Shown piece after piece: positions 1,159 to 16,813 of a stretch of 42,996 nt of DNA. A program made the position numbers and the translations under genes. Within the stretch, counting starts at the first letter, position 1. Each line of letters opens with the position of its first letter. Source of the stretch: Pseudomonadota bacterium. Its GTDB lineage: Bacteria > Pseudomonadota > Gammaproteobacteria > Burkholderiales > SG8-39. Below the pieces are notes generated by a model, which worked only from the letters and a program-made list of their open reading frames with translations, was not told where the DNA came from and did no database searches. The stretch covers positions 1-42,996 of the forward strand of contig JAJZPQ010000033.1 in NCBI GenBank assembly GCA_021811085.1. The letters run 5' to 3'.

Positions 1159-1585
1159 ACGCGTTGCTCTTTTGCAATTCGGGCCCATCACTCTTAAGGC
1201 ACTGAAACCAAAGGGAACTAATTTTGAGCCACAGACCTTGGGAGAGCACGTCAGGAAGCGGCGGCTGGAATTGAGGCTGACCCAGAAGCAGGCAGCCGAG
1301 CGGCTAGGCGTCAAACCCTGGACGGTCCTGAACTGGGAGAAAGACCACACCGAGCCGCCGATCGAGTCCATACCCGCCATTCTACAGTTCTTGGGCTACG
1401 AGCCATTCCCGGAATCTAAAACATTGCCTGAGCGCATGCTGGCTAGGCGCCGTGCAATCGGCTGGTCAATCAAGGAAGCTGCCCGGCAGCTTGGGGTAGA
1501 TGAGGGGACATGGGGAGTTTGGGAGCGGGGCGCAACGGCTCCAAAGGGGCAACACCTGATGCTGCTCAACGCACTCATCTCGTAG
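1151..1585 (+). CDS. XRE-type DNA-binding protein with two HTH units
   Basis: The protein has two helix-turn-helix segments. The first is XRE-like (about residues 33-85: EHVRKRRLELRLTQKQAAERLGV...VLNWEKD). The second is similar (about residues 97-140: RRAIGWSIKEAARQLGVDEGTWGVWERG). Such short tandem-HTH proteins are common as isolated genes in proteobacterial accessory DNA. The only ATG (1151) lies at the junction with the antisense comM fragment and has no good ribosome site, and homology seems to start around KPKGTNFEPQ. The gene may therefore have lost its native start, and expression is doubtful. It shows no linkage to the amide genes other than proximity. Confidence 0.55.
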   Translation: MQGRVALLQFGPITLKALKPKGTNFEPQTLGEHVRKRRLELRLTQKQAAERLGVKPWTVLNWEKDHTEPPIESIPAILQFLGYEPFPESKTLPERMLARRRAIGWSIKEAARQLGVDEGTWGVWERGATAPKGQHLMLLNALIS

Positions 1586-1981: not shown

Positions 1982-2011
1982 TTGACATTAATCAAAAAGT
2001 ATCGCTATAAT
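1982..2011 (+). promoter_or_regulatory. Consensus sigma-70 promoter of the amide operon
   Basis: A perfect -35 box TTGACA (1982-1987) and a perfect -10 box TATAAT (2006-2011) are separated by 18 bases. Predicted start is near 2018. No gene starts within 250 bases; the next feature is a structured leader ending in a terminator. A strong constitutive promoter followed by a terminator is what antitermination control requires. Confidence 0.85.
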
Positions 2012-2017
2012 TTCTCT

Positions 2018-2121
2018 ACGTTAGAGCCGCTGTCAGATTTCTCCGGCGGTTAGCGTCACTACGTCGTGACGTGCGCTCCACACATCACCCGGGTTTTTCA
2101 CGGACCGGGTACGGCAAAAAG
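2018..2121 (+). ncRNA. Structured leader RNA, probable AmiR/ANTAR target
   Basis: Between promoter and terminator there is no ORF but several stems. CGTCAC/GTGACG encloses a 6-base loop (TACGTC). ACCCGG/CCGGGT forms another hairpin. An alternative hairpin pairs CGGG (2106-2109) with CCCG (2128-2131) and GGC (2113-2115) with GCC (2122-2124) around a 6-base loop, AAAAAG. It uses the left arm of the terminator at 2122-2150, so it would act as an antiterminator. ANTAR proteins bind tandem hexaloop hairpins; the usual A1/G4 loop bases are only partly matched here. It could instead be a free-standing small RNA. Confidence 0.55.
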
Positions 2122-2159
2122 GCCTTTCCCGCCTCTCAGGCGCGAAGGGCTTTTTTTTT
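2116..2159 (+). terminator. Intrinsic terminator in the amide-operon leader
   Basis: A 12-pair stem (2122-2133 with 2139-2150, one mismatch and one G-U) with a 5-base loop is followed by nine T residues (2151-2159). A run of As ahead of the stem pairs with the Ts. It lies about 100 bases after the predicted transcript start and about 130 bases before the first gene, so it would block the operon unless read through. Confidence 0.8.
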
Positions 2160-2290
2160 GGTCTCGTTTTTTGCGTTGTGCTTTTGACGTTGGGCAGTCC
2201 TAAATCTGGCCGGTGATTGTGGACGGAGAAGGTAGGCTAACGGGTTTTGTATGGGTACTTTCAGGATCAACTCAACTATTGGGGGGAAAC

Positions 2291-3535
2291 ATGCGAGTAA
2301 GCAATTGGGGAAAAGCAAGGGCGGCGAGCCTGATGCTGGCTATGTTTGGAATCGCGATGGCTATGCCGGCGGCTCAAGCGGCAGATCCAATCAAGCTTGG
2401 TTTGCTTGAAGACGCATCGGGCAACTTTGCCATAGCCGTGATTCCTAAGATACATGCCGTGGAGTTGGCCGTAGGTGAGATTAATGCCAAGGGCGGAATT
2501 CTTGGACGTCAGATAAAGATCGTTGCCTATGACACACAATCGGATAACACTCGCTTTCAGGAGTTCGCGCGGCGAGTGATTCAACAGGACAAGGCGGATG
2601 TAGTTTTCGGCGCATTTTCCAGCGCGTCGCGCGAGGCCATTCGCCCGATCATGGATCGCTACCATCAGCTGTATTTCTACAACAACCAGTATGAAGGTGG
2701 CGTGTGCGACTCAAACACTTTTGTTACTGGTGCAGTACCAGAACAGCAGTTTTCTACACTTATTCCGTGGATGATGGAGAAGTATGGAAAGCGCGTCTAC
2801 ACGATTGCGGCAGATTACAATTTTGGCCAAATCTCCGCCGAATGGGTGCGCAACATCGTGAAGGAGAAAGGTGGCACGATGGTTGGGGAGGAATTTATCC
2901 CACTAAGCGTGTCGCAGTTTAGCCAAACGATTCAAAACATACAAAAGGCCAAGCCGGACTTCGTAGTCACGCTGCTTGTGGGTGCAAATCAAGCATCCTA
3001 CTATGAGCAGCAAGCTTCCGCTAACCTCAATATCCCGATGGCAAGCTCGGTCAACGTCGGGCAGGCCTATGAGCATCGCCGATTCAAGGCGCCCGCGCTC
3101 AAGGACATGTACGTGACCGCTAACTACGTCGAGGAAGTCAATTCTCCGGAAAGCAATGACTTCAAGAAGCGCTTCCATGCCAAGTTCCCGAACGAGCCTT
3201 ATATCAATCAGGAAGCGGCTAATTCATACGATGCGGTCTACCTTTACAAAGCGGCGGTTGAGAAGGCCGGTACGACAGACCAGAAGAAAGTAGCCGCGGC
3301 GCTGCGCAGCGGGAGTATCTGCACAAATGGACCGTCCGGGAAGGTGTGCATTGATCCGAAGAGCCAGCACCTTAGCCACACAATCTACTTGGTGCACGTC
3401 AAGGCTGACCACTCCGTGGATATCCCGAAGGTATGGAATGATATCAAACCCTACTGGCTGGGATCGGTTGGTTGCGATCTATCCAAGAAATCTGATCATA
3501 GCCAGTACACGCCAAGCCATCTTCCGAAAAAGTAG
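2291..3535 (+). CDS. Urea/amide-type ABC transporter, periplasmic binding protein
   Basis: Binds the substrate in the periplasm for the importer encoded by the next four genes. The start at 2291 is chosen because GGGGGG lies just before it and because it gives a signal peptide (residues 1-30, cleavage after AAQA, mature start ADPIKLG). The mature 384 residues form a type I periplasmic-binding fold of the UrtA/FmdD/AmiC group. The strand-turn after DVVFGAFSSASREA and the YNNQYEGGVC segment match the ligand-pocket region of AmiC (YPTPYEG). This points to urea, short amides or relatives, not branched-chain amino acids. It is the first gene after the antitermination leader. The exact ligand is not deducible. 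Confidence 0.85.
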   Translation: MRVSNWGKARAASLMLAMFGIAMAMPAAQAADPIKLGLLEDASGNFAIAVIPKIHAVELAVGEINAKGGILGRQIKIVAYDTQSDNTRFQEFARRVIQQDKADVVFGAFSSASREAIRPIMDRYHQLYFYNNQYEGGVCDSNTFVTGAVPEQQFSTLIPWMMEKYGKRVYTIAADYNFGQISAEWVRNIVKEKGGTMVGEEFIPLSVSQFSQTIQNIQKAKPDFVVTLLVGANQASYYEQQASANLNIPMASSVNVGQAYEHRRFKAPALKDMYVTANYVEEVNSPESNDFKKRFHAKFPNEPYINQEAANSYDAVYLYKAAVEKAGTTDQKKVAAALRSGSICTNGPSGKVCIDPKSQHLSHTIYLVHVKADHSVDIPKVWNDIKPYWLGSVGCDLSKKSDHSQYTPSHLPKK

Positions 3536-3548
3536 TTTCTTGTGTGCC

Positions 3549-3575
3549 GCGGGTCGGCAGAAACAGCTGACCCGC
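3549..3575 (+). other. Intercistronic stem-loop after the first binding-protein gene
   Basis: GCGGGTC (3549-3555) pairs with GACCCGC (3569-3575), with further GC/GC pairing inside. There is no T-run, so it is not a clean terminator. Between a binding-protein gene and its permease genes such hairpins usually stabilise the upstream message and lower downstream expression. The second and third importers have hairpins at the same place. Confidence 0.55.
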
Positions 3576-3628
3576 GTAATTTGCCATTTGCGGGGACGTG
3601 AATTCCTGTTGGATCGGATAGGTCAAGA

Positions 3629-4507
3629 ATGGATTTCTTATACTATGCTTACGCTGCTTTTTATCAGTTCGCCGACGCGTTCTCGTTCCTCGTTCTGAGC
3701 GGCATCGGACTTGCCGTCATCTTCGGGATGATGGGCGTAATCAACCTAGCGCACGGTGAATTCATCATGTGCGGCGCCTATGTGACGGTTCTCAGTGCGC
3801 GCGCGGGGCTGCCATTGCCGTTCGCAATGGTATGCGGGACGCTGTCGTCCGGGTTAGTGGGTCTTGTCTTGGAGCGTTTAATCATCCGCCGCCTTTATCA
3901 GCGGTTGTTTGATTCCATAGTCGCAACCTGGGCAATAAGCATCATCGCAACGCAAGGCATGTTGATCGTCGCCGGGCCATCGCTCGAAGGGATCAAGACG
4001 CCTTTTGGGAGTTTTGAGCTTGGCGGCATATCGTTCTCTGTGTACCGGGCAATGTTACCGGCGGTCGCGCTTCTACTGCTCGGGGCCTTGTACTGGCTAT
4101 TTGTCCGCACCCGGTTTGGTATCCATTCGCGAGCGGCTATGCAAGACGCGGACATGGCAAAGGCGCTGGGCGTAAGCACCAACGCAATCTATAGTAAAAC
4201 GTTTGGCCTCGGGGCTGCGCTGGCCGGACTGACCGGCGCTCTCTATGCGCCCACGATGACCGCCGTTCCCACCATGGGGTCTGCATTCATCGTTCAATCC
4301 TTTGTTACAGTGGTCGTGAGCGGTGCTGACGTGATGCTTGGTCTCGCGCCTTCTGCAGCCGCCCTGGGTTTGATACAGGCCTTGTTGACCGGATTTCACG
4401 GACAATTGATTGGACAGATCGGCCTCTTGGTGACGGTGATCTTGGTCGTCCGGATCATGCCTACCGGAATAAGCGGATTCTTTCTTCGCGGGTCGGGAAG
4501 CAAGTAA
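3629..4507 (+). CDS. ABC transporter permease, LivH/UrtB type
   Basis: One of the two membrane subunits of the first importer (292 residues, the usual LivH/UrtB length). It is very hydrophobic with about eight membrane segments. It carries the family signature near the N-terminus (GIGLAVIFGMMGVINLAHGEFIMCGAY, residues ~25-51) and the conserved cytoplasmic EAA-like loop with the ATPase-contact sequence around RTRFGIHSRAAMQDADMAKALGV. The ATG at 3629 follows a GGATAGG ribosome site. It stands 93 bases after the binding-protein gene and 11 bases before the next permease. The amide context suggests urea/amide import. Confidence 0.85.
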   Translation: MDFLYYAYAAFYQFADAFSFLVLSGIGLAVIFGMMGVINLAHGEFIMCGAYVTVLSARAGLPLPFAMVCGTLSSGLVGLVLERLIIRRLYQRLFDSIVATWAISIIATQGMLIVAGPSLEGIKTPFGSFELGGISFSVYRAMLPAVALLLLGALYWLFVRTRFGIHSRAAMQDADMAKALGVSTNAIYSKTFGLGAALAGLTGALYAPTMTAVPTMGSAFIVQSFVTVVVSGADVMLGLAPSAAALGLIQALLTGFHGQLIGQIGLLVTVILVVRIMPTGISGFFLRGSGSK

Positions 4508-4518
4508 AGAGATCTCGG

Positions 4519-5598
4519 ATGAGAAAGATGCTTCCCAACCTCAGTGGTCCGCAAACCCTTGGCAAAGGGCCGTTGTTCTGGGTCTTGTTTTTCGCGGCGG
4601 TGATCGCGGCGGCCGGTGTGCCACTGTTCGCGAGTTCTTTTGCTGTGTCGAACTTTTCCTACTTCCTGGTCTGGACCTTCATGGCGATGGGGCTCTCTCT
4701 CATGTGGGGGTATGCCGGGATTCTCAGTTTCGGTCAGACCGCGTTTTTTGGATTGGCCGGATACGCATATGGCGTTATCAGCATCAATTGGGGGGATGCC
4801 CACGGACTTACATGGGCTGCGCTTCTTGCGTCGTTGACACTGCCCGTCATTCTCGCCAGCGTACTCGGATACCTCATTTTCTACGGCGGTATTCGAGAAG
4901 TCTTCGTGGGTATCGTGACGCTATCGGTTACTCTGGTGTTTGAAACTTTCATGGCCCAGACGGCCGGGCCTGAATGGACGATCGGTGAGGCCAGACTAAA
5001 TGGTTTCAATGGTATGTCGGGGATGCCGGCGTTGACGATCAATTTTCACTCGGGCGACTTAATCTTCGACGGATCGCCGTTCTACTGGCTACTGCTTGCC
5101 TTGGTCGTATTGGCATATCTTGGTCTGCGCGTGTTAGTGAACTCGCGGTTCGGCAACGTGTTGGTAGCGATTCGCGAAAATCCGGAGCGCGCCGAAATGC
5201 TAGGCTACAATATTCGCTTCTACCAGCTGATCGTGTTCACCATCGGTGGATTTTTCGCGGGATTGAGCGGGGCGTTCTATACGCTTTGGGGTTCGTACAT
5301 CACCCCTTCCTCGATGGGCCTGAATGCGGCAGCCCTCCCAATAATTTGGGTAGCCGCCGGTGGCCGTACGGATATTACGGCTGTCCTGGTTTCCACTATC
5401 GCGCTGACTTGGGTGTCCCAGCAGCTCGCCATCTACGGCAGCCAGTACGCGCTCGTACTGATGGGTATAGTGCTTCTCCTTGTGGTGTTGTTTGCGCCGA
5501 ACGGTTTTGTAGTGAGCGTCTGGCGTAGTCTGTCCAAAAGATCATTCGTTCGCGAGGCAGCTGATCCGGTTCGGAAGTTCACCTCTGCTGCTGACTAA
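4519..5598 (+). CDS. ABC transporter permease, LivM/UrtC type
   Basis: Second membrane subunit of the first importer (359 residues). The family signature LSLMWGYAGILSFGQTAFFGLAGYAYG sits around residues 58-84, and the coupling loop VNSRFGNVLVAIRENPERAEMLGY around 210-234. Membrane segments cover most of the length, with a short charged C-terminal tail. Two in-frame ATGs (4519 and 4528) are possible; the first is taken. The gene is followed 3 bases later by the ATPase gene, so translation is probably coupled. Confidence 0.85.
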   Translation: MRKMLPNLSGPQTLGKGPLFWVLFFAAVIAAAGVPLFASSFAVSNFSYFLVWTFMAMGLSLMWGYAGILSFGQTAFFGLAGYAYGVISINWGDAHGLTWAALLASLTLPVILASVLGYLIFYGGIREVFVGIVTLSVTLVFETFMAQTAGPEWTIGEARLNGFNGMSGMPALTINFHSGDLIFDGSPFYWLLLALVVLAYLGLRVLVNSRFGNVLVAIRENPERAEMLGYNIRFYQLIVFTIGGFFAGLSGAFYTLWGSYITPSSMGLNAAALPIIWVAAGGRTDITAVLVSTIALTWVSQQLAIYGSQYALVLMGIVLLLVVLFAPNGFVVSVWRSLSKRSFVREAADPVRKFTSAAD

Positions 5599-5601
5599 GA
5601 C

Positions 5602-6315
5602 ATGGCAACGATTCTAGAAACACGTGGGTTAAGCAAATACTTTGGTGGGCTGCACGCTATCGACGGAGTTGATCTGGCAGTTGGCGAGGGAGAATTGCGT
5701 TGCGTTATTGGGCCAAATGGCGCGGGAAAAAGCACATTATTCAAGCTTCTCGTTGGTACTTATGCACCTTCTGCGGGCCAAATCCTATTTCGCGATCAAG
5801 AAATCTCCACATTTAAGCCTTACCAAAGAGTCCGAAGAGGTCTCAGCATAAAATTTCAAGTTCCTGGCATTTTCCTGCAGCTTCCAGCTGAGCAAAATAT
5901 TCGAATAGGCCTGCAGCGAGGGTATGCCGACGGTCCGCTTGAAACCGAGCTTGAACGCTTGCTTCAACTGATCGATTTACAGTCGCGGCGCAGAGAGCTA
6001 GCTGGCAACTTGTCGCATGGTCAACAGCAGTGGCTTGAAATTGGTATGGCGCTGGCGACAAAGCCGACCGTCCTGCTGTTGGATGAGCCAACTGCCGGGA
6101 TGTCTCCGGAGGAAACCTTCAAGACGGGAGAATTGGTAAAAGGGCTAAATGCGGAAGGCATGACCATCGTGGTGATCGAGCACGATATGACGTTTATCCG
6201 CCAGATCGCGCAACGAGTGACGGTTTTACACTTTGGCAAGATATTTGACGAAGGCAGCATTGACGACATCACCCAAAACGAAGACGTGGTTCGTATTTAT
6301 CTCGGGAAGGCATAA
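5602..6315 (+). CDS. ABC transporter ATPase, LivG/UrtD type
   Basis: Energy-coupling subunit (237 residues). Walker A is GPNGAGKS (37-44), the signature is LSHGQQQ (about 137-143) and Walker B is VLLLDEPTAGM (about 156-166), followed by the switch histidine in VIEHDM. The LSHGQ form of the signature and the PTAGMSPEET stretch are typical of UrtD-like rather than classical LivG proteins. Its TAA stop overlaps the next ATG by one base. It heterodimerises with the following ATPase in this family. Confidence 0.88.
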   Translation: MATILETRGLSKYFGGLHAIDGVDLAVGEGELRCVIGPNGAGKSTLFKLLVGTYAPSAGQILFRDQEISTFKPYQRVRRGLSIKFQVPGIFLQLPAEQNIRIGLQRGYADGPLETELERLLQLIDLQSRRRELAGNLSHGQQQWLEIGMALATKPTVLLLDEPTAGMSPEETFKTGELVKGLNAEGMTIVVIEHDMTFIRQIAQRVTVLHFGKIFDEGSIDDITQNEDVVRIYLGKA

Positions 6316-7025
6316 TGAGCGAACCAATACTGGAGGTGTCTGGTCTGCGCGCCGGATATGGCGGAACGCCAATTCTGCAGGGCGTCGACTGCTCCGTGCA
6401 AAGAGGTGAAATCGTCGCCATCATCGGACGTAACGGAGTCGGCAAGACGACATTGCTGAAAACGCTCATCGGATTGCTCCCCGTTACGGGTGGTTCGATT
6501 CGCTTCCAGGAGAGCGATATCACAAAGGTGGAAGCCAACCATCGCGCTCATATGGGGATCGGCTACATTCCGCAAGGCAGAGGAATTTTCCCAAGACTTA
6601 CGGTCCAAGAGAATCTTTTGATGGGGGAACTCATCAACACGAAGAGTCAGCAGAAGCTCCATTCGCTTGTCGAGCGCTATTTCCCGATTCTTACGAGGCG
6701 AAGGTACCAAAAAGCCGGAACGATGAGTGGCGGCGAACAACAGCAGCTCGCGATCGGCAGGGCGCTGGTCGGAAATCCGGAGATGATCTTATTGGATGAG
6801 CCATCGGAAGGCATTCAGCCGTCCATAGTCCACGAGATCGCCCACAATATGCAGCGACTCAACGCTGAGATCGGTTTGACGATACTCTTTGTCGAGCAGA
6901 ATATCGATATGATCAGATCCATGGCGCAACGCTGCTACGTCATGGATAAAGGCAAGATCGTTGACCAGGTGTACCCGAAAGATCTCGCAGACGAAGCGGT
7001 GGTAAGAAAATACCTGGCCATATAG
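6315..7025 (+). CDS. ABC transporter ATPase, LivF/UrtE type
   Basis: Second ATPase of the first importer (236 residues). Walker A is GRNGVGKT (38-45), the signature MSGGEQQQ (about 136-143), Walker B MILLDEPSEGIQP and the switch region FVEQN. The DEPSEGIQPS sequence is the UrtE/LivF form. The start overlaps the previous stop by one base. It ends the first importer; a 146-base gap follows before the sensor gene, with no obvious promoter or terminator. Confidence 0.88.
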   Translation: MSEPILEVSGLRAGYGGTPILQGVDCSVQRGEIVAIIGRNGVGKTTLLKTLIGLLPVTGGSIRFQESDITKVEANHRAHMGIGYIPQGRGIFPRLTVQENLLMGELINTKSQQKLHSLVERYFPILTRRRYQKAGTMSGGEQQQLAIGRALVGNPEMILLDEPSEGIQPSIVHEIAHNMQRLNAEIGLTILFVEQNIDMIRSMAQRCYVMDKGKIVDQVYPKDLADEAVVRKYLAI

Positions 7026-7171
7026 AATTGTTCGCGGTTGCCAGAAGCCATCAAGCTAGAAGTAACTGAGTTGGTAGATTGCAATTGCAGAATCTGGCGT
7101 GGCTGCTGTGTGGATCGCCGGCACATTAGGCCGACGAGTTTGGTACGAAGGTAAGAGATCGGGCGTTTACT

Positions 7172-8395
7172 ATGGCTGGAATGGTTACGGGTATTCGAAG
7201 TCGACCTGAAGTGGGGGTCGGGTTGCTATTTTCTACCACGGGCACGTATCGGACCATCGGCACGGCGATGCTGTCCGGTGCCTTGTTGGCGATTGAGGAA
7301 ATTGCAGCCGATGCCAGTTTCGATTTCAAACTGGCTCCCGTCATTGAGAACCCGGGCGGTTCTGTGCCGTATTACTACGCATGTTGCGAGACGCTTCTTC
7401 GGAGGCGCGGCGTCTCGCATGTGATCGGCTGCTATACATCTTCAAGTCGGAAGGAAGTCATCCCGTTCTTCGAGCGATGCGATGCGCTGCTGTGGTATCC
7501 CTCTCACTATGAGGGGTTCGAATGTAGCGATAACGTCATATACGTGGGAGCATCGCCCAATCAACACATTGCGCCTCTTGCGGGATATCTCATGTCGGCA
7601 TATGGCCGACGGGGATATTGCGTTGGTTCGAACTATATCTGGCCCTGGGAAAGCACGCGAATCATGCGACAGATACTCGAAGCCAATGGCGGTACCGTTG
7701 TAGCCGAACGGTATTTGCCGCTAGGTGTGAAAGACGTAAAACACATAATCGATGAAATCGCCGAACTTGAGCCTGACTTCATCTACAACTCGTTAATTGG
7801 CGAATCGTGTTACGCATTTATCGAAGCATTTAGCGCAGCTTCAGCGCGCCGCGGGAGCGGTGGTGCGCGGCTGCCGATAATCGGTAGTTGCACGCTGTCG
7901 GAGCCGGAACTCCTGGCCCTCAGACCGGAAGCGAGAGGCGGTCACATTTCTTCGTCAGTGTACTTTCAGACCATTGATAGCGCCGAAAATCATCGATTCA
8001 TCCGCCGCTACAGGAAGCGTTTCGGCAGCTCTGCCGTAGCCTCTGCCGATGCGGAGGCCTCATACGTTGCAGTTCTGCTGTTGGCCCACGCAATTCGAAG
8101 GGCCGGATCAACCGGGATCGAGGCGGTGCGCAGCGTGGCTCATGAATTCACACTGGAGGCACCCCAAGGCGCCGTACACGTAGATAGTGAAAATAACCAT
8201 TGCCACCTGACGCCCCGTCTCGGTCGATCCACCGAGAAAGGGGATTTCGAGATTCTATATACCGCTGACGGCCCTCTGCGACCAGATCCCTACCTCGTAT
8301 GGTTTGATCCGATCCGAGACACCAGAAACTGGAGCGCAATCGGCCACGATCGATCGTACTGCCAGTGGATCGAGACCCAGGAGATGCACAGATGA
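7172..8395 (+). CDS. amiC: AmiC-like amide sensor / negative regulator
   Basis: In Pseudomonas, AmiC is a cytoplasmic sensor that holds the antiterminator AmiR inactive and releases it when amide binds. This 407-residue protein follows AmiC closely: CYTSSSRKEVIPFFERCDALLWYP and HYEGFE (about residues 87-115), GASPNQHIAPLAGYL, the binding-cleft GSNYIWPWESTRIM, then EAPQGAVHV, NNHCHLTPRLG and RPDPYLV near the C-terminus. It has no signal peptide, unlike the related transporter binding proteins, which fits a cytosolic sensor. An alternative ATG lies at 7181. The gene overlaps amiR by ATGA, as expected for two proteins that form a complex. Ligand preference is inferred from the nearby amidohydrolases. 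Confidence 0.88.
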   Translation: MAGMVTGIRSRPEVGVGLLFSTTGTYRTIGTAMLSGALLAIEEIAADASFDFKLAPVIENPGGSVPYYYACCETLLRRRGVSHVIGCYTSSSRKEVIPFFERCDALLWYPSHYEGFECSDNVIYVGASPNQHIAPLAGYLMSAYGRRGYCVGSNYIWPWESTRIMRQILEANGGTVVAERYLPLGVKDVKHIIDEIAELEPDFIYNSLIGESCYAFIEAFSAASARRGSGGARLPIIGSCTLSEPELLALRPEARGGHISSSVYFQTIDSAENHRFIRRYRKRFGSSAVASADAEASYVAVLLLAHAIRRAGSTGIEAVRSVAHEFTLEAPQGAVHVDSENNHCHLTPRLGRSTEKGDFEILYTADGPLRPDPYLVWFDPIRDTRNWSAIGHDRSYCQWIETQEMHR

Positions 8396-9084
8396 ACAGC
8401 AATGCATTTTCCAGCTTCAGGGGGCAAACGGCGCTTATCCTGCACGACGCCGATCGTGACCAGCGGGCTCTTGTTGCCCAATTGAGCCGATTAGGTTTGA
8501 TTATTGAGCAACGATGTCCGATGGGCCGCCACGAGTGGCCGCAGGTCGACATCTGTTTCTTCGATGCTGACCGCTGCCGGAATCACACATTTCCGTGGAC
8601 CAAGGGAGAGCCGCGGGTGCCGCTGATCGCAATAATGGGCTCTGAGACGCCTGAGCGCATTCAGTGGAGCTTGTCCCATGGTACCTCGGCCTTTCTGGTT
8701 AAGCCGATTCGTTCGAGTGGGACGTATTTAGCCCTCGTGACGGCTATACAGAGCTTTGCTCAACGTCGATCTCTTCTCGCTGATATGCGAGAACTCCAAG
8801 AACGCGTGCGAGCAAGACGGTTGCTGTTCAAGGCGTTGCTAAAGTTGATGATCAGCTCCAATCTGACCGATGACGAGGCATTCGAGAAGTTACGTTTGGA
8901 AAGCATGCGTTGCCAAGTGTCAATGGAGGAACTGTGCCTTACTTATTTGCGAGACGAGATTTCCAGCTACCACAGCTCCGCCCTGGGTCAGGCCGGTACC
9001 TCGATGGGTCGATCGAGCAAGGTAACTTTGCTCGCTTCTCGTCGTCCGGGTAATTACTCAAGAAGCAAGAAGGTAGCGTCGTGA
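8392..9084 (+). CDS. amiR: AmiR-like ANTAR antitermination regulator
   Basis: An RNA-binding response-regulator-like protein predicted to let RNA polymerase pass the leader terminator at 2116-2159. The N-terminal half (residues ~10-120) is a receiver-like domain without an obvious phospho-acceptor, as in AmiR. A coiled-coil linker follows (RRSLLADMRELQERVRARR), then the ANTAR domain (about 138-185; KALLKLMISSNLTDDEAFEKLRLESMR). About 35 residues beyond ANTAR, Ser- and basic-rich, exceed P. aeruginosa AmiR. The start at 8392 is chosen for its ATGA overlap with amiC; an upstream in-frame start would overlap amiC more. Confidence 0.85.
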   Translation: MNSNAFSSFRGQTALILHDADRDQRALVAQLSRLGLIIEQRCPMGRHEWPQVDICFFDADRCRNHTFPWTKGEPRVPLIAIMGSETPERIQWSLSHGTSAFLVKPIRSSGTYLALVTAIQSFAQRRSLLADMRELQERVRARRLLFKALLKLMISSNLTDDEAFEKLRLESMRCQVSMEELCLTYLRDEISSYHSSALGQAGTSMGRSSKVTLLASRRPGNYSRSKKVAS

Positions 9085-9188
9085 AATTGGGTGTTGCCGA
9101 CACCCGATTACACGACCAGAAGAGAGTTTACGCGCGCGGATTGGGCGCAATAGGCAAGCCGCACAAATGACCGATAAGGAGCATAAAC

Positions 9189-10181
9189 ATGACTTGGTTA
9201 GATAGCTCGATAATGCATACGCGCGGTATGGCGCGCGGAAAGCAAGGAACAACCCATGAATTGACCGAGGCCAAGCAAGGGAAATATCACTACACCATGG
9301 GCCCTTACTCTGCACCCGTGTTGCACATTCGTCCGGGCGATCGAGTTGTTGTCGAGACCCGTGACGCCTTCGAAGGAGCAATAAAGACTGAGCGGGACCT
9401 GCCCAGCCAGAAACTTGAAATGCCCTTCCTCAATCCACAGAACGGGCCGATCATGATTGAAGGTGCGGAAAAAGGCGATGTGGTCGCCGTTCATATTGAG
9501 AAGATGACGCCGCGGGGACCGCAGCCGCTAGGCACGTGCTGCATGATCCAGGAGTTCGGTGCGCTCACAGGCACCTACTATACAGCGACCTTGAATCAAC
9601 CATTACCCGAAATCGTTCGGAAAATTAGGCTTGACGAAGAAAACGTCTATTGGAGCGATCGCGTCACCCTGCCGTACAAGCCCCATATTGGCACGCTGAG
9701 TTTGTCGCCTGAGATCGATTCCATTAATTCGCTTACTCCCGACAATCACGGAGGCAACATGGACTTGCCGGACATGGGGCCGGCTAGCATCACTTACCTT
9801 CCGGTTCGGTCTCCTGGCGGGCGACTGTTTATCGGCGATGCTCATGCCTGCCAGGGAGATGGTGAAGTGTGCGGAGTCGCGGTGGAATACCCGACCACCA
9901 CCACAATTACAGTAGACCTCATTAAGGGATGGTCGATAGAGTGGCCGCGCCTGGAAACCGACGAATTTATCATGGCGATTGGTAGCGCTAGGCCGCTCGA
10001 AGACGCAACACGGATTGCCTACCGCGAACTTGTGCGCTGGATGGCGAAGGACTATGGATTCGACCAATGGGACGCGTATATGATGCTTAGTCAGTGCGGA
10101 AAAGTTAGGCTGGGAAATTTTGTTGATCCCAAGTACACAGTCGGAGCCTCAATTCGTAAGCACTATCTTCGCAACAAATAG
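9189..10181 (+). CDS. fmdA: Acetamidase/formamidase (FmdA/AmdA family)
   Basis: Hydrolyses a short amide (formamide or acetamide in known members) to ammonia and the acid. The 330 residues cover the whole FmdA_AmdA fold. Seen: the N-terminal HIRPGDRVVVETRDAFEG; the LNPQNGPIMIEGAEKGDVVAVHIE stretch; LSPEIDSINSLTPDNHGGNMD; and the family-defining GDAHACQGDGEVCGVAVE at about residues 216-233, with metal-ligand Asp, His and Glu. An AAGGAG ribosome site lies 8 bases before the ATG. The AmiC/AmiR regulators directly upstream support an amide substrate. A small hairpin (9089-9105) without T-run lies in the gap before it. Confidence 0.88.
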   Translation: MTWLDSSIMHTRGMARGKQGTTHELTEAKQGKYHYTMGPYSAPVLHIRPGDRVVVETRDAFEGAIKTERDLPSQKLEMPFLNPQNGPIMIEGAEKGDVVAVHIEKMTPRGPQPLGTCCMIQEFGALTGTYYTATLNQPLPEIVRKIRLDEENVYWSDRVTLPYKPHIGTLSLSPEIDSINSLTPDNHGGNMDLPDMGPASITYLPVRSPGGRLFIGDAHACQGDGEVCGVAVEYPTTTTITVDLIKGWSIEWPRLETDEFIMAIGSARPLEDATRIAYRELVRWMAKDYGFDQWDAYMMLSQCGKVRLGNFVDPKYTVGASIRKHYLRNK

Positions 10182-10274
10182 CGCCGCTGGAAATCAACGC
10201 GTTTTTCGCCGGGCGCGTCGTTGCCTGAAACGGTGCTTGGAAAGATCACACCAACCCGCAACTGGAGAGCGGAC

Positions 10275-11030
10275 ATGGATATCGGACTCAAAGGGAAGCG
10301 CGCCGTCGTCACCGGTGGCAGTAAGGGAATCGGCCGCGCCATAGCAGAAGGATTCGCCGCGGAAGGAGCCAACGTATCGATCTGTGCGCGTAAGGCCGAC
10401 GAGGTGGCCGCGGTAGTCGCCTCGTTAAAGGCAAAAGGCGTCAACGCGTTTGGCCGAGCCTTCGACGTGGCCGATGCGGCTGCGTTGACCGCGTGGATAT
10501 TGGCGACCGCCGACGAGTTGGGCGGCATCGACGCGCTGGTATGCAACGTCAGCGCGCTTGCCGTTGGCGATTCGCCCGAGACCTGGGAAAAATCCTTTCG
10601 CACCGACATGATGCACACCGTCAATGCCGTGGCGGCGGCAGTTCCGTTTCTGGAAAAATCGACAGCCGGATCCATCGTTCTGATTTCAAGCGTCTCAGGA
10701 TTCGAGGTGGATTTCGCAGCAGGCTCTTACGGCGCGATGAAGGCCGCACTGATCCATTACGCCAAGGGATTGAGCCGGCAGCTCGTCGGCAAGGGAATCC
10801 GGGTGAACTGCGTCTCTCCGGGCAATACCTATTTCGACGGCGGGATTTGGCAAACCATCGAGAAGAACATGCCGGATCTCTTCAGTTCAACGCTCAAAGT
10901 AAATCCGACCGGAAAGTTCGGCACACCTGCCGAGGTCGCGAATGGCGTCGTATTCATCTCGAGCCCGGCCGCCAGCCGGATTTCCGGGACTAACCTGGTG
11001 ATCGATGGCGCCCTCACGGTCGCTGTCTAG
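10275..11030 (+). CDS. SDR-family oxidoreductase of the amide cluster
   Basis: Short-chain dehydrogenase/reductase of classical length (251 residues). The NAD(P)-binding motif TGGSKGIG lies at 13-20, the NVSA stretch at 91-94, the catalytic Ser in LISSVSG (about 139) and Tyr152-x3-Lys156. The C-terminal SPGNTYFDGG and SGTNLVIDGA are typical. The ATG at 10275 follows GGAGAGC. The substrate is unknown. Its place between two amidohydrolases suggests it oxidises or reduces a product or an N-substituted precursor, but that is inference only. Confidence 0.85.
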   Translation: MDIGLKGKRAVVTGGSKGIGRAIAEGFAAEGANVSICARKADEVAAVVASLKAKGVNAFGRAFDVADAAALTAWILATADELGGIDALVCNVSALAVGDSPETWEKSFRTDMMHTVNAVAAAVPFLEKSTAGSIVLISSVSGFEVDFAAGSYGAMKAALIHYAKGLSRQLVGKGIRVNCVSPGNTYFDGGIWQTIEKNMPDLFSSTLKVNPTGKFGTPAEVANGVVFISSPAASRISGTNLVIDGALTVAV

Positions 11031-11041
11031 GAGATAGAGCC

Positions 11042-11158
11042 ATGAGCGGACCTGGCCGTCACACAATCTACAACGTGCCGATTTTGCCGCGTGAGATAAC
11101 TATAGGGCACCAAAACGCCGATTTTTGTGGTGAAGTCGATTCTCGACGCGGTGATTAA
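11042..11158 (+). CDS. Possible 38-aa peptide with a strong ribosome site
   Basis: ATG is preceded by AGGAG at 8 bases spacing (11029-11033, overlapping the SDR stop). It opens a frame of 38 codons beginning MSGPGRHTIYNVPILPRE and ending CGEVDSRRGD. No family is recognised. The 163-base gap between the SDR and amidohydrolase genes is otherwise empty, and the next gene has its own GGAGGG site. It may be a real small protein, a leader peptide, or the 5' stub of a deleted gene. Confidence 0.35.
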   Translation: MSGPGRHTIYNVPILPREITIGHQNADFCGEVDSRRGD

Positions 11159-11193
11159 GAGTCAATCAGCAAGCTATAAGGAGGGATAGAAAT

Positions 11194-12078
11194 ATGGTGC
11201 AGGCGAAAGGACGTCACGAGAGCGAGCTCAAGGTAGCATGTATTCAAATGGAGCCGATTATTGGCGAGAAGGCGGCAAACCTGAAAAGCAGCATTGCCAT
11301 GATTGCGGCGGCGGCCAAGAAGGGCGCAAAGTTAATCGTTCTTCCGGAATTGGCCAATACAGGTTACGTGTTTGAGACCCGGGAGGAGGCGTTTTCCCTT
11401 GCCGAACCTGTACCCGGTGGACCAACCTGTGACGCATGGATTCAAATTGCGGCACAGCACGGGGTCTACCTCGTGGCCGGCATCACCGAGCGCGACGGCG
11501 ATGCCTTGTACAACGCGTCTGTAGTGATCGGCCCAAATGGTTACATTGGCACCTTCCGAAAGGTGCACTTGTGGAACGAAGAAAACCTGTTCTTTGAGCC
11601 GGGAAATCTAGGCTTCCCAGTGTTTCATACGCCAATAGGTCGAATTGGCACGTTCATTTGCTACGACGGATGGTTCCCGGAAAGTTATCGCCTGTGCGCA
11701 CTGCAGGGCGCGGACATTATCTGCGTTCCGACCAACTGGGTGCCAATCCCGGGACAGGATCCTAAGCGCGAAGCGATGGCCAATATCCTGTGTATGGCGG
11801 CGGCTCACTCCAATTCCGTGTTCATCGCAGCGGCTGATCGCGTGGGCACCGAGCGCGGCCAGTTGTTTAACGGCCAGAGTCTTATCGTCAGCTACACGGG
11901 TTGGCCTATCGGGGGGCCAGCAAGCCCAACGAAGGAGGAGATCATTTACGCGAACGTGAACCTCGCCGACGCACGTCGGAAGCGTAATTGGAATGAATAC
12001 AATCAGGTGCTGCGGGACCGCCGCACGGATGTGTACTCGGAGATGCTTGGTTCGAAGATAGAACCAGGGTGGTACTGA
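11194..12078 (+). CDS. Nitrilase-superfamily amidohydrolase (C-N hydrolase)
   Basis: Cleaves a carbon-nitrogen bond of an amide, carbamoyl compound or nitrile with a Glu-Lys-Cys triad. All three residues are present: Glu52 in LPELANTG, Lys123 in FRKVHLW and Cys156 in FICYDGWFPE. The 294 residues span the CN_hydrolase domain and end shortly after it, without the long C-terminus of true nitrilases. CYDGWFPE favours an amidase or carbamoylase role over nitrile hydrolysis. An AAGGAGGGA site precedes the ATG. With fmdA the operon has two unrelated amidohydrolases, suggesting a wider substrate range or a two-step pathway. The exact substrate is unknown. Confidence 0.85.
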   Translation: MVQAKGRHESELKVACIQMEPIIGEKAANLKSSIAMIAAAAKKGAKLIVLPELANTGYVFETREEAFSLAEPVPGGPTCDAWIQIAAQHGVYLVAGITERDGDALYNASVVIGPNGYIGTFRKVHLWNEENLFFEPGNLGFPVFHTPIGRIGTFICYDGWFPESYRLCALQGADIICVPTNWVPIPGQDPKREAMANILCMAAAHSNSVFIAAADRVGTERGQLFNGQSLIVSYTGWPIGGPASPTKEEIIYANVNLADARRKRNWNEYNQVLRDRRTDVYSEMLGSKIEPGWY

Positions 12079-12133
12079 ACCCGAGTTGAGGTGTGAATTT
12101 TCACTGACACTGTTTTGGCTAAGGAGATCTTCG

Positions 12134-13396
12134 ATGAGCGATAACGAAAAGGGTAAAGGAGTGAACAAGGGTCGACGCGAAGCGCTGGGAATGCTTGGCG
12201 CGGGGGCGGGTGCGGCAGTTGCCAGTATGGTTGCGCCGGCCCTGATTCGTAGCGCGTACGCTGCGGATCCGATTAGAATCGGAGTGATCTCTCCACTTAC
12301 CGGCGCCTGGACTGTGTACGGTAAGGCCCATATCTCGGGGTTTGAACTGGCGGTCGAAGAAATAAATGCAGCGGGTGGTGTGCTAGGTCGCAAGTTGGAA
12401 ATCGTGATCGGCGATTCTAAGACGGAACCGCGTATCGTCGTGGAGCAGGCCAACCGGCTCATTCGTCAGGAAAAGGTTGACTTCCTCGCGGGCACGTTCA
12501 GCAGTGCTGAGCGCAATGCCGCCGGGCCGGTGGTAACTCAGGCCAATAAGATTCTGCTTTACCCGACCTTCTACGAAGGCCAGGAAAGTGAATACTACCC
12601 GGGCGTTTGCAATAAAAACATCTTCATGTTTGGTCCAGAGCCAACCCAGCAGGTATGGCCGCACATGGAGTACATGATGAAGAAGTACGGCAAGAAGTTC
12701 TTCATGATCGGTTCGGACTACGCATGGCCGCGCGTGACGAACAAGGTTACCAAGCAGAAGCTAACCCAACTTGGCGGCAGTGTGGTGGGGGAGGTATACA
12801 TCCCGTTCAACACGCCACAATATGAATCGGTACTGCGCGACATCCGTTCCTCAGGCGCCAATATTATTTTCCACTCGTTGACCGGGAGCGACACGGTCAA
12901 TTTCCGCCGCCAGTTTGTTGCCGCCGGGATGAACAAGGATTTCATCCTATGGACGGTGGACGACGAAGAAGTGGTCACCTCGGGTCTCGGTCCGGATGTG
13001 TCGGCAGGGACGTACGTTAGTTTTGACTACTTCATGACCATCAAGCACCCGAATAACGTCGATTTTCTCAAGCGTTTCCGGGCCAAATTTGGCAAGGATG
13101 CACTGATGAATACGGTGGGCGTGGCAATGTATAACGCCGCGCATATGGCCGCTCTTGCCATCAAGAAGGCTGGTTCCGTGGAGACCGACAAGCTGCGAGC
13201 AGCGCTAAAAGGTATCAGTTATGATCGAGCGCCGCAGGGGCCTGTGGTGATGCGCACCGAGGATAACCAGATCGTGGTGCCGTCGTATTTAATGAAGGTG
13301 CGCAAGGGTTGGACCAACGTGACCGACATGTTCGAGGAAGTGCAATCATTTAAGGCTGTGCAACCGCTGGCCGCACGCTGCAAACTGCCGCTATAG
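12134..13396 (+). CDS. Second urea/amide-type ABC binding protein (UrtA-like), Tat signal
   Basis: Periplasmic binding protein of the second importer (420 residues). The start at 12134 follows AAGGAGA. The N-terminus has twin arginines (GRREALGML, residues 13-21), then a Gly/Ala-rich hydrophobic stretch and an AYA cleavage site before ADPIRIG. This looks like a Tat signal, as in UrtA proteins, and differs from the Sec-type signal of the first binding protein. The ligand region LLYPTFYEGQESEYYPGVC and GSDYAWPRVTNKV closely parallel AmiC and UrtA. Urea or a short amide is the likely ligand. It is only moderately similar to the 2291-3535 protein, so the two importers are not a recent duplication. 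Confidence 0.87.
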   Translation: MSDNEKGKGVNKGRREALGMLGAGAGAAVASMVAPALIRSAYAADPIRIGVISPLTGAWTVYGKAHISGFELAVEEINAAGGVLGRKLEIVIGDSKTEPRIVVEQANRLIRQEKVDFLAGTFSSAERNAAGPVVTQANKILLYPTFYEGQESEYYPGVCNKNIFMFGPEPTQQVWPHMEYMMKKYGKKFFMIGSDYAWPRVTNKVTKQKLTQLGGSVVGEVYIPFNTPQYESVLRDIRSSGANIIFHSLTGSDTVNFRRQFVAAGMNKDFILWTVDDEEVVTSGLGPDVSAGTYVSFDYFMTIKHPNNVDFLKRFRAKFGKDALMNTVGVAMYNAAHMAALAIKKAGSVETDKLRAALKGISYDRAPQGPVVMRTEDNQIVVPSYLMKVRKGWTNVTDMFEEVQSFKAVQPLAARCKLPL

Positions 13397-13427
13397 TCGT
13401 GGTATTTGGCTAATCGTATTATTCGTA

Positions 13428-13451
13428 CCTGCGGCGCTGCCGCGCCGTAGG
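13428..13451 (+). other. Intercistronic stem-loop after the second binding-protein gene
   Basis: A ten-pair stem (13428-13437 with 13442-13451, one G-U) has a 4-base loop and no T-run. It occupies the same position as the hairpin at 3549-3575 in the first importer, between binding protein and permease. Confidence 0.6.
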
Positions 13452-13477
13452 TCGCGTATCTACTGGAGATCTTCACT

Positions 13478-14332
13478 TTGAGCGCTGCATTAAGCGTCGT
13501 TGTTGATGCAACGCTAATAACCTTGGTGCTCGCATTGGCCGCGTTTGGGCTCGCCATCATTTTTGGCCTGGTAGGGGTCATCAATATGGGCCACGGCGCC
13601 ATGCTTACGCTTGGGGCTTACCTGATGTGGGCGGCGACAAGAATGGATGTTCCCTTTGTGCTCGCGGCCCTTATCTCGGCGCTGGGGGTCGGCCTAGTTG
13701 GTCTGCTGCTTGAGCACGTCGTAATTCGGCACTTCTATGGCGAACCCCTCGAGACGCTACTGCTCACATGGGGCTTCTTTCTGATCACGACTGAAATAAT
13801 TAAAATCGTGTTTGGCACGGACCTTAGGGAAGTGGTCAATCCGCTGCCCGGTAGTTTTGACCTCGGAACGATAAGATTCCCCGCGTATCGCAGCTTGGTT
13901 GCGCTGTTTGCCATCGTCCTGATGGTTGCGGCGGCATTGGTCTTCTATAAAACAAGAATCGGCATCCGAATCCGCGCTTTGATGCAAAACTCCGAAGTGG
14001 CGAGTCTGCTCGGTCTCAACATCCAGCTCACCTACAAGATTGTATTCGTCTCCGGTTCGTTCATGGCAGGCTTGGCAGGCGCGCTTATCAGTCCAATGTT
14101 GAGCGTGGATCCGTATATTGGCAATATTTTCCTGGTGCGCTCATTTTTCGCCGTCACTGTGGGCGGCGTCGGGCAGATTCTCGGAGGCACACTCGCCGGC
14201 AGTTTTCTGGTCGGAGGAATGGAGACCGTTTTTGCGTTGGTATCTAGCCAAGTTGTGGCGCAGACGATCGTATTCGCGTTCGCTATCGTAATTTTGCGCT
14301 TCCGTCCACAAGGCGTAGTGACCAGCCGATGA
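13478..14332 (+). CDS. ABC transporter permease, LivH/UrtB type (second importer)
   Basis: A 284-residue hydrophobic membrane subunit with the family signature AAFGLAIIFGLVGVINMGHGAMLTLGAY near residues 21-48 and the cytoplasmic coupling loop KTRIGIRIRALMQNSEVASLLGLN near 160-185. The start codon is TTG, with TGGAGAT 8 bases upstream and no better ATG nearby. Its stop overlaps the next start (ATGA), so it is translationally coupled to its partner permease. Confidence 0.85.
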   Translation: MSAALSVVVDATLITLVLALAAFGLAIIFGLVGVINMGHGAMLTLGAYLMWAATRMDVPFVLAALISALGVGLVGLLLEHVVIRHFYGEPLETLLLTWGFFLITTEIIKIVFGTDLREVVNPLPGSFDLGTIRFPAYRSLVALFAIVLMVAAALVFYKTRIGIRIRALMQNSEVASLLGLNIQLTYKIVFVSGSFMAGLAGALISPMLSVDPYIGNIFLVRSFFAVTVGGVGQILGGTLAGSFLVGGMETVFALVSSQVVAQTIVFAFAIVILRFRPQGVVTSR

Positions 14333-15345
14333 TTGAAGCGAAGGATACGGGGGTCCTCGCGGGTTTTCCGCCGCGGGTACGGCGGGTGCGGGAGCCGGTG
14401 GTCGCGCTCTGGGTATTCGCAATTCTAGCGCTGTTGCCACTCATGTCCTCTGGCTACGTCATCTATATTCTTCCTCAGTACATGTTGTTCGGTGTGCTGG
14501 CGATGTCTCTTGCGCTGCTATGGGGCTTCTGCGGCATGCTGAGCTTCGGGCAGGCCGGATTCTTCGCCCTAGGCGCCTATATCATGGGTTTATGCCTGCA
14601 GCACGCAGGTACCTTGGGTGTGAATGCCGCCTATCTCGCATTGCTCGCCAGCGCAATGGCCGGCGCGGTGATCGCCGGCGCGGTTGGTTACTTCCTCTTC
14701 AGCGCGGGGGTGCGCGACTCGTATTTCGTGATCGTTACTCTCGCCCTGTCAATCATCGCTGAGCAGCTCGCAGTGGGGCAGTCGCAAGTCACCGGTGGCT
14801 GGAACGGCATGTTCATTCCGCGCATGCAACTTTCGTTCTGGGATTGGAGACTTCCACTCGACTCCGATGCAAGCATCTACTACTTGATCGTTGTTTTCGT
14901 TGCGGTCACATACTCTTTCTTGCGTTGGATCACTCGCGCCAAATTCGGCAAGGTCCTGGCAGGAATCCGAGAAAACGAAGATCGGATACTGTCGCTTGGT
15001 TTTAAAGTCCATTTGTATAAAACGGCGACCTTTGCCATTTCGGCTGGTCTTGCCTGCGCGGCTGGGGCACTGTATGGTACGCACGCCGCGTTCGTAGCCC
15101 CTTCTCTTGCCGGCGTTTTGTTTTCCACTGAAGTGGTAGTGTGGGTGGCCATTGCTGGACGCAACTCATTGCTGGGCGCGTTGCTGGGAGGGATCGTTGT
15201 CTCGTCCATCTCCAATGCGCTGAGCGCGATTACGCCGCAGTATTGGCAGTTGGTGCTCGGAGTGTTGTTCGTGGTGGTAGTCGCTTTCTTTCGTGGTGGC
15301 ATAGCTGGCGCGGTGCATCGTTTTTCCGCGCGCCGGAGGGGTTGA
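14329..15345 (+). CDS. ABC transporter permease, LivM/UrtC type (second importer)
   Basis: A 338-residue membrane subunit. The signature SLALLWGFCGMLSFGQAGFFALGAYIMG lies at about residues 60-87 and the coupling loop RAKFGKVLAGIRENEDRILSLGF near 203-225. It overlaps the upstream permease by ATGA and is followed 4 bases later by the ATPase gene. Gene order BCDE matches urt-type operons. Confidence 0.85.
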   Translation: MIEAKDTGVLAGFPPRVRRVREPVVALWVFAILALLPLMSSGYVIYILPQYMLFGVLAMSLALLWGFCGMLSFGQAGFFALGAYIMGLCLQHAGTLGVNAAYLALLASAMAGAVIAGAVGYFLFSAGVRDSYFVIVTLALSIIAEQLAVGQSQVTGGWNGMFIPRMQLSFWDWRLPLDSDASIYYLIVVFVAVTYSFLRWITRAKFGKVLAGIRENEDRILSLGFKVHLYKTATFAISAGLACAAGALYGTHAAFVAPSLAGVLFSTEVVVWVAIAGRNSLLGALLGGIVVSSISNALSAITPQYWQLVLGVLFVVVVAFFRGGIAGAVHRFSARRRG

Positions 15346-15349
15346 GGCC

Positions 15350-16066
15350 ATGGCTGAACTGCTCCGCGCCGAGCATCTTACCAAGCGATTCAAGGGACTT
15401 ACTGCGAACGACGATGTGGGATTCAGCATTCTCGCCGGCGAAGTTCGCTGCGTGATCGGCCCTAATGGCGCCGGCAAGACTACTTTCATCAGCATGATTT
15501 CAGGGCATCTTCAGCCGAGCTCGGGCCACATCTGGTTCCGTGGTGAAGATATTACCCGGATGTCGGTAGTGGAGCGCGCACGGCGCGGGATCGCTCGCAA
15601 GTTCCAGACACCATCGGTCTTCAATCACCTTACAGTATACGAAAACGTCGAGCTTGCCGTCCTCGGCACCTCGCGTCCGAGGCATCGCCGCGATGCACGG
15701 GTGCGCGAGGTGCTCGAACTCGTGCGCCTTTCTGAACAAAGCGACAAGCCGACAGCGATGCTTTCGCACGGACAGCGACAGTGGCTGGAGGTGGGATTAC
15801 TGATCGGCAACGATGCTGAGTTGATGTTGCTTGACGAGCCCACCGCCGGCATGACCGCCGAGGAAACACATTCCACGGGAGAATTGGTGCGCTCGCTCGC
15901 TCGGGATCTGCGGTTATCGGCCATCATCATCGAGCACGACATCAATTTCATTCGTAACCTCGAAGCGCCGATAACCGTCCTGCACTTGGGCCGGGTACTG
16001 GCCCAAGGAGATTACGACGAAATTGCGAGCGATGAACTGGTTCGCGATAGTTATCTGGGACATTAG
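15350..16066 (+). CDS. ABC transporter ATPase, LivG/UrtD type (second importer)
   Basis: 238 residues. Walker A GPNGAGKT (37-44), signature LSHGQRQ (about 138-144), Walker B LMLLDEPTAGM, and IIIEHDI. The LSHGQ signature and PTAGMTAEET again mark the UrtD-like form. GAGG just before the ATG serves as ribosome site. Confidence 0.87.
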   Translation: MAELLRAEHLTKRFKGLTANDDVGFSILAGEVRCVIGPNGAGKTTFISMISGHLQPSSGHIWFRGEDITRMSVVERARRGIARKFQTPSVFNHLTVYENVELAVLGTSRPRHRRDARVREVLELVRLSEQSDKPTAMLSHGQRQWLEVGLLIGNDAELMLLDEPTAGMTAEETHSTGELVRSLARDLRLSAIIIEHDINFIRNLEAPITVLHLGRVLAQGDYDEIASDELVRDSYLGH

Positions 16067-16069
16067 ATA

Positions 16070-16771
16070 GTGAGCGTGCGGGTCGAGAAGCTGATCGCAG
16101 GTTATGGAGACATCACTGTGCTGCGTGATATGTCGCTTCGCGTCGATCCCGGCGAGATCGTGGGTATTCTCGGGCGCAACGGCATGGGCAAAACAACCTT
16201 GATTCGCTGTCTGGCGGGCCTAATAAAACCCGATGCGGGCTCTATCGTCTTCGAGGGGCAGGATGTAACCGCATTGGAGCCGCATGAACGAGCGCGGCGC
16301 GGCTTTACGACAATTGTGCAGGGCCGCGGCATGTTCCCGCAGATGACCGTCGCCGAGAATCTGGAGATGGGGCGAATTGCCTCCGGTCGCGGCGGCAGGG
16401 ACCGTCTGAGTGAAGTATTGAGTTATTTCCCGCGCCTTCAAGAGCGCATGAACCAGCAAGCGGGTACCATGAGCGGCGGAGAGCAGCAGATGCTCGCGAT
16501 CGGGCGCGGGCTTATGGCGAACCCTAGGCTCATGCTGCTTGATGAGCCTTCGGATGGCATCATGCCGTCGCTTGTCACGCAAATCGCGGAAATTCTGGTG
16601 CAAATTAATCAACGCGAGAAAATGACTATCATCATTGTCGAGCAGAACGTTCCGATGGTGTTTAGGATGTCGAAACACTGCTTGATTCTAGAGAAGGGTC
16701 GAATCGTCGCCGAAGGCGACCCGAATGAACTGTCGTCCTCTAATATCATGCAAGAGTATTTGGCGATATGA
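16070..16771 (+). CDS. ABC transporter ATPase, LivF/UrtE type (second importer)
   Basis: 233 residues, starting at a GTG codon 3 bases after the previous stop. Walker A GRNGMGKT (35-42), signature MSGGEQQM, Walker B LMLLDEPSDGIMPS and IVEQN. It is the last gene of the long same-strand run that begins at 2291. A weak hairpin with a T-run lies about 40 bases downstream. Confidence 0.87.
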   Translation: MSVRVEKLIAGYGDITVLRDMSLRVDPGEIVGILGRNGMGKTTLIRCLAGLIKPDAGSIVFEGQDVTALEPHERARRGFTTIVQGRGMFPQMTVAENLEMGRIASGRGGRDRLSEVLSYFPRLQERMNQQAGTMSGGEQQMLAIGRGLMANPRLMLLDEPSDGIMPSLVTQIAEILVQINQREKMTIIIVEQNVPMVFRMSKHCLILEKGRIVAEGDPNELSSSNIMQEYLAI

Positions 16772-16813
16772 TAAATCTTCGAATATCGCCGGGTAATCTT
16801 CGACTCCTATTGA

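Follow-up and report, generated by a model that had tools for sequence, protein, structure and literature searches.

A putative amide-scavenging operon with two urt-type importers and an AmiC/AmiR pair in a burkholderial genome

We consider a run of 15 genes at 2291-16771 in a Pseudomonadota bacterium (Burkholderiales, SG8-39; assembly GCA_021811085.1, 4.48 Mb, 98% complete); the window analysed spans positions 1 to 42,996 of contig C22 (JAJZPQ010000033.1). We begin with the described systems that come closest to it. The amide operon of Pseudomonas aeruginosa is amiEBCRS. It has in common with our locus the amiC-amiR sensor/antiterminator pair and amide substrates; it differs in having AmiE, not FmdA, a short-chain dehydrogenase/reductase (SDR) and a C-N hydrolase, and in having no UrtABCDE-type importers. 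A leader terminator is also common to both (PMC3369931, passages). In Bradyrhizobium japonicum, blr0968-blr0973 place a urt-like importer beside hydrolases of PF03069 and PF00795, and the authors, arguing in 2010 from gene context, inferred an amide and not urea as substrate (PMC3098086, in the passages cited here). This locus differs in having one importer, and those passages mention neither an SDR nor AmiC/AmiR. Finally, Pseudomonas veronii Yu15 and Klebsiella KOS9 carry urtABCDE, fmdA and amiE in one operon and amiC-amiR-amiE with an ABC importer in the other, and Yu15 is reported to grow on acetamide and formamide (PMC13209695, relevant passages). The pieces are thus in separate operons, and an SDR or a second importer does not appear in the passages concerned.

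All 15 genes of the window locus lie on the plus strand, with intergenic gaps of -31 to 163 bases. In order they are urtA1 (2291..3535), the receptor of importer 1; urtB1, urtC1, urtD1 and urtE1 (3629..7025), its permeases and ATPases; amiC (7172..8395), an amide sensor; amiR (8365..9084), overlapping amiC by 31 bases; an fmdA-like amidase gene (9189..10181); the SDR gene (10221..11030); nit, for the C-N hydrolase (11194..12078), after the largest gap of 163 bases; urtA2 (12086..13396), the receptor of importer 2; and urtB2, urtC2, urtD2 and urtE2 (13478..16771), the permeases and ATPases of importer 2. Domain searches gave the same gene families as the original prediction, which had also placed all genes on one strand, put the widest gap at about 165 bases and seen no strong internal terminator. 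These points hold: a terminator scan showed no convincing internal terminator in the operon, and the terminator-like sites in 1-19000 (28 on both strands) are at the background of shuffled sequence (mean 21.0, sd 4.5). The start at 2291 is right for the genes; overlooked just to the left were a sigma-70 promoter, TTGACA-18-TATAAT (12/12, consensus scan), at 1982..2011 on the plus strand and a leader intrinsic terminator, a hairpin with nine T, at about 2118..2159 on the same strand.

We read the locus as a horizontally acquired, substrate-inducible amide-scavenging operon with AmiC/AmiR antitermination and two import modules, and give this reading a probability of roughly 0.7. Transcription would start from the promoter at 1982-2011 and by default stop at the leader terminator. 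Cytoplasmic AmiC would hold AmiR until an amide binds; the released AmiR would then bind a mini-hairpin in the leader RNA that overlaps the terminator, and the polymerase would pass into all 15 genes. UrtABCDE-1 is predicted to import a small amide of the formamide/acetamide class, not urea, which FmdA would hydrolyse to ammonia and the acid. UrtABCDE-2 and the C-N hydrolase would form a second module for another amide, a carbamoyl compound or a nitrile. The sequence itself shows the genes with their families and order, the promoter, the terminator and mini-hairpin sequence, the recurrence in other loci, the pocket residues, the absence of urease alpha and of a full urea carboxylase, and the yifB junctions; the single transcription unit, antitermination by this AmiR and all of the substrates are what we infer. 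The layout of promoter, leader and amiR is a testable substrate switch, and could report the true substrate of the operon.

The first question is whether the gene set recurs. Among the FmdA loci, taken as the best 80 of 176 relatives, 54 have an importer, 33 have amiC and amiR, 34 have the SDR (at least 55% identical) and 21 have all three; six of the 80 have, on top of all three, a second importer and a nitrilase that shares 60-62% identity with that of the window. Restricting the count to the 44 loci that have 9 kb or more of DNA on each side gives 34, 23, 20 and 16, and again 6 with nit and two importers. FmdA also matches 1153 plasmid records, 31 at 60-80% identity and 1122 lower. A unique composition, as the original prediction supposed, is rejected: the block of importer, amiCR, fmdA and SDR stands in 21 of the 80 loci, and a neighbourhood of urt, PF03069 and PF00795 was in print in 2010 (PMC3098086, passages as above). 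Similar gene sets exist in other bacteria, and the window operon is an interesting variant of them; the homologues occur together and are not always found apart. Our literature search, with subscription journals mostly outside it and the negative correspondingly weak, found no publication describing this set under AmiR control of urt-fmdA.

The neighbourhood search for amiC-amiR-fmdA-SDR-nitrilase thus gave six loci with the full content, with the reservation that their orders and second importer differ. These loci, from Paraburkholderia/Caballeronia (L064, L070, L082, L083, L086, L093), have AmiC/AmiR, two importers, FmdA (80-81%), the SDR and the nitrilase in common with the window; they differ in a divergent amiCR, an additional amidase-like gene and a fused permease-ATPase. 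Their importers belong to other clades, with a UrtA' about 33% identical to UrtA1 and 32-34% to UrtA2. The exact order urtABCDE-amiC-amiR-fmdA-SDR, behind a leader with terminator and mini-hairpin, is found in a Comamonadaceae metagenome-assembled genome (L124), where a PF01425 amidase comes last and no second importer or nitrilase was found in the locus. On plasmid pC of Ancylobacter polymorphus, genes for a receptor and an ABC importer come after that of the C-N hydrolase (73%); the plasmid differs in that urease follows and the importer is only 32-37% alike. We observe that this plasmid locus (L154, 9001-18855) combines the C-N hydrolase, a urt-like importer with the non-urea pocket ESYFEYFGN, and urease genes.

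The enzymes can be placed by family. The FmdA-like protein belongs to PF03069 (109 bits, cut-off 27) and to the subfamily of its nearest structure, 5UBU, a "putative acetamidase/formamidase" (563 bits); it fails the formamidase equivalog NF045496 (67 vs 500). The C-N hydrolase belongs to PF00795 (188 bits) with the Glu-Lys-Cys motifs LPEL, RKVH and ICYD. Its nearest structure is the Pyrococcus abyssi nitrilase 3IVZ (229 bits), and it fails the archaeal nitrilase equivalog NF040852 (249 vs 500). The SDR has the nucleotide motif and YxxxK; a copy of 90% identity stands beside a distant FmdA in genome G027. As a recurrent neighbour of this FmdA, its substrate may perhaps be an amide with a hydroxy or oxo group, or the product of such an amide.

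Could the 15 genes be two independent modules lying side by side, the first (urt1-amiCR-fmdA-SDR) controlled by AmiR and the second (nit-urt2) having a promoter and a substrate of its own? We regard this as a serious possibility, though one somewhat short of even odds. The largest gap falls between SDR and nit, nit and an importer stand alone on the Ancylobacter plasmid, module 1 of the Comamonadaceae locus ends in a different amidase, and the pocket of UrtA2 differs from that of UrtA1. Against it, the scans show neither a plus-strand sigma-70-like site nor a terminator in the SDR-nit gap, and both kinds of module are combined in the six Paraburkholderia/Caballeronia loci. The original prediction would have given way to separate promoters for the blocks; by consensus scan only, the promoter at 1982-2011 is the one plus-strand sigma-70-like match in 1-19000.

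We turn to the regulatory pair. AmiC (PF13433, 400 bits) has its best structural matches in P. aeruginosa AmiC (1QNL/1PEA, 264 bits), with a nearly equal 259 bits to 8TG1, a receptor that carries no name and whose pocket is of the urea type, and UrtA of the Prochlorococcus marinus type match it at no more than 185 bits. It has no signal peptide (by eye) and adjoins amiR. AmiR carries AmiR_N (47.6 bits) and ANTAR (35 bits), both above cut-off. It is a distant member: other matches in 300 genomes of the order are at most 29% identical, and the best among the FmdA loci reaches 52% (L111). Amide utilisation under an AmiC/AmiR-type pair, as first proposed, is therefore supported by the AmiC match, the missing signal, the overlap and the AmiR domains.

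Upstream of the operon there is a promoter with a terminator-bearing leader, as in AmiC/AmiR antitermination systems, with 107 bases from the promoter to the terminator downstream of it. The candidate AmiR site (P2), the mini-hairpin GGC-AAAAAG-GCC at 2113..2124 on the plus strand, sits on the 5' arm of this terminator, and the folding of the leader beats 198 of 200 shuffles. We surveyed the leaders of 83 loci, the 80 FmdA loci and three plasmid loci, of which 74 have enough upstream DNA; nine cut by a contig end were dropped, six without amiR and three with it. With the mini-hairpin defined as GGC-N6-GCC or AGC-N6-GCT abutting a terminator, terminator and mini-hairpin occur together in 15 of the 19 operons that contain amiR, in 2 of 16 loci with amiR only elsewhere, in 1 of 39 without amiR and in 0 of 1480 shuffles, counts that are not probabilities because related loci are not independent. 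The terminator alone (15/19, 6/16 and 1/39, respectively) drives much of this contrast. In 11 of the 18 positives, a hairpin with an A1/G4 loop, in some with one stem mismatch, stands 11-12 bases before the mini-hairpin, a layout resembling the two-hairpin ANTAR motif of Ramesh et al. (PMC3369931, in the passages concerned), who already list urea transporters among the genes behind ANTAR RNAs.

Several observations weigh against the operon being read as we propose. The window leader has no canonical first ANTAR hairpin (P1), and its P2 loop, AAAAAG, has A and not G at position 4, so that a dual hexaloop ANTAR RNA (A1 and G4 in each loop) is not present there. Four amiR operons of the FmdA set do not have terminator plus mini-hairpin, and a strict dual-hairpin rule is passed by 7 of 19 amiR operons vs 2 of 39 without amiR. 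In 14 extra loci picked by AmiR similarity, the motif occurs in only one, on the contig of L113, and dual hairpins likewise in 1/14. In addition, the SDR has no assigned role, and UrtA1 scores above the cut-off of the urea equivalog TIGR03669 (598 vs 495 bits).

An alternative is that the leader terminator merely ends an upstream unit or is a constitutive attenuator, with AmiR acting elsewhere. The absent P1 and imperfect P2 would agree with this, as would the many AmiR loci without the motif by scan. The 12/12 promoter at its distance of 107 bases, and the same layout in orthologous operons, mostly those that hold amiR, speak the other way, and we consider the alternative unlikely. Antitermination is the likely switch of the operon by these sequence features, putatively through the window AmiR, with the mini-hairpin as a candidate RNA site in this clade.

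The next question is what the importers carry. In P. marinus UrtA, urea is contacted by W120, S122, Q144, Y190, N246 and neighbours; W120A abolishes binding, and changes at S122, Q144, Y190 or N246 strongly lower or abolish it (PMC10392092, in the passages drawn on here). UrtA1 (pocket FSYQEYFVS) has F, Q and V at W120, Q144 and N246; UrtA2 has F, F and T and so keeps none of the three, and P. aeruginosa AmiC has Y, P and V. The letter of UrtA2 at S274 varies by alignment (T or L) and is not used. The UrtA1 pattern is general: among FmdA-linked UrtA1 at 40% identity or more (41 rows, 40 distinct, L024 and L055 being the same DNA; the shorter UrtA1 of L060 dropped), N246 is V, W120 is F or I and Q144 is kept in 40 of 40 distinct sequences. 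UrtB1 (324<374), UrtC1 (391<576), UrtD1 (252<304), UrtE1 (276<286), UrtA2 (271 vs 493), UrtB2 and UrtC2 all fall below the urea cut-offs. The genome has no match to urease alpha (PF00449) and no urea carboxylase above cut-off (TIGR02712 best 557 vs 1304, for the biotin-carboxylase part only).

Urea is an unlikely substrate because UrtA1 has lost pocket residues and the genome shows no urease alpha and no urea carboxylase above cut-off; the alternative that the operon serves urea uptake, with urea carried by both importers and the amidases as accessories, is accordingly rejected as quite improbable, the TIGR03669 score of UrtA1 and its retained S122, Q144 and Y190 being outweighed by the loss of W120 and N246, each reported as needed for urea binding in P. 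marinus UrtA (PMC10392092, same passages), and by the seven components below the urea cut-offs. Importer 1 is probably an amide importer labelled "urea", as its predicted pocket indicates. The second receptors of seven two-importer loci and the Ancylobacter receptor have a common pocket, ESYFEYFGN. At E 1e-80, a search of 274 genomes of the class gave no UrtA2 relative outside its own genome, and plasmids gave none at 1e-60. By eye, with no predictor, UrtA1 starts with a Sec-like signal and UrtA2 with a twin-arginine-like one (KGRREALGMLG). The original prediction took this as a sign of different ligands: different ligands are plausible from the pocket residues, and the Sec/Tat argument itself is rejected, the signal type saying nothing of the pocket.

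As a urea control, we took the UrtA that 120 genomes of the order encode above the cut-off of TIGR03407 (52 places, 50 examined). All 33 scoring at least 567 bits have W, Q and N, urea-type by residues, while all 17 scoring 500-541 bits have V at N246 with F or Y at Q144; in the lower-scoring set (L231-L250), 3 of 20 have W, Q and N and 17 have V. The TIGR03407 cut-off is thus one that mixes two pocket types. The FmdA-linked "urea" receptors differ at two urea-binding residues in 40 of 40 distinct sequences vs 33 of 33 of the strongest UrtA matches, and 17 of the 50 passers also have V at N246. If binding tests agree, many Proteobacteria and metagenomes carry urea-uptake annotations that should be revised. 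Some of the V-at-N246 UrtA have an AmiR gene no more than a few kb away (G050, G057, G063, G108, G150).

The island may have come from elsewhere. In 2-kb bins its G+C is 0.52-0.57 over 2001-16000 and 0.58-0.70 over 16001-42000; at third codon positions it is 0.51-0.71 for the 15 genes vs 0.71-0.88 for six right-flank genes, two of which (18963-20241) also have a low overall G+C of 0.56-0.58. This base composition fits a foreign origin, without proving it. The island directly borders an insertion in yifB, at codon ~343. The intact yifB lies at 16977..18476 on the minus strand, and its 3' part is duplicated beyond the island as a fragment at 697..1170, minus strand (residues 342-497, with 69% identity to the intact gene). 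A small XRE-like helix-turn-helix (HTH_3) protein is encoded at 1151..1585 on the plus strand and starts at the yifB junction near 1159. The genome has an intact yifB on C22 and two further 3' fragments, that at 697-1170 and one on contig C48; both begin near residue 342 and abut the same sequence and HTH reading frame.

We compared the yifB-site loci (window 697-1585 and 16977-18476; L150 12712-13660; L153 9040-17248; L190 1929-9876). In G010 and G013, DNA matching C48, yifB and the right flank of the window are contiguous, and an apaH-like gene follows yifB there and in G011 and G005. In G001 and G012, nadC, nadB (named by eye), nadA, nrtR and panD lie between yifB and apaH; remnants of the HTH frame are left in both, and in G001 there is also a yifB 3' end in decay. 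Of 60 relatives' genomes, 3 including its own have the HTH protein, and in each case yifB or a piece of it is adjacent or a few kb away, with copies beside yifB on C48 and in G001 and G012. At least three genomes of the genus (this one, G001, G012) show repeated use of the site at codon ~343, together with a duplicated yifB 3' end, a small HTH frame and different metabolic cargo. The reading frames examined at 1151-16771 include none recognisable as integrase- or transposase-like, and since C22 and C48 are separate contigs a whole insertion is not proved. Tentatively, and at well below even odds, the island could be the load of integrative elements from a family not yet described, which would target yifB codon ~343, restore the gene with a 3' end of their own, be able to stack in tandem and take varied cargo (nadCBA-nrtR-panD in two relatives), with AmiR reading a one-hairpin variant leader.

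A few further features were seen. Strong hairpins with no T-run lie directly 3' of both receptor genes, between urtA1 and urtB1 (3536-3628, -35.4 kcal/mol) and between urtA2 and urtB2 (13397-13477, -28.7), and possibly keep the receptor mRNA abundant. Rfam and tRNA searches led nowhere. The glnK-amtB genes (19903-21653) were excluded as part of the island, their DNA being common to all three relatives compared. Further right, at 22534-27760, an enoyl-CoA hydratase-like frame, a benzoate-CoA-ligase-like gene and a LigB dioxygenase suggest an aromatic degradation cluster, and parts of 22540-25000 are DNA common to the window genome and three relatives.

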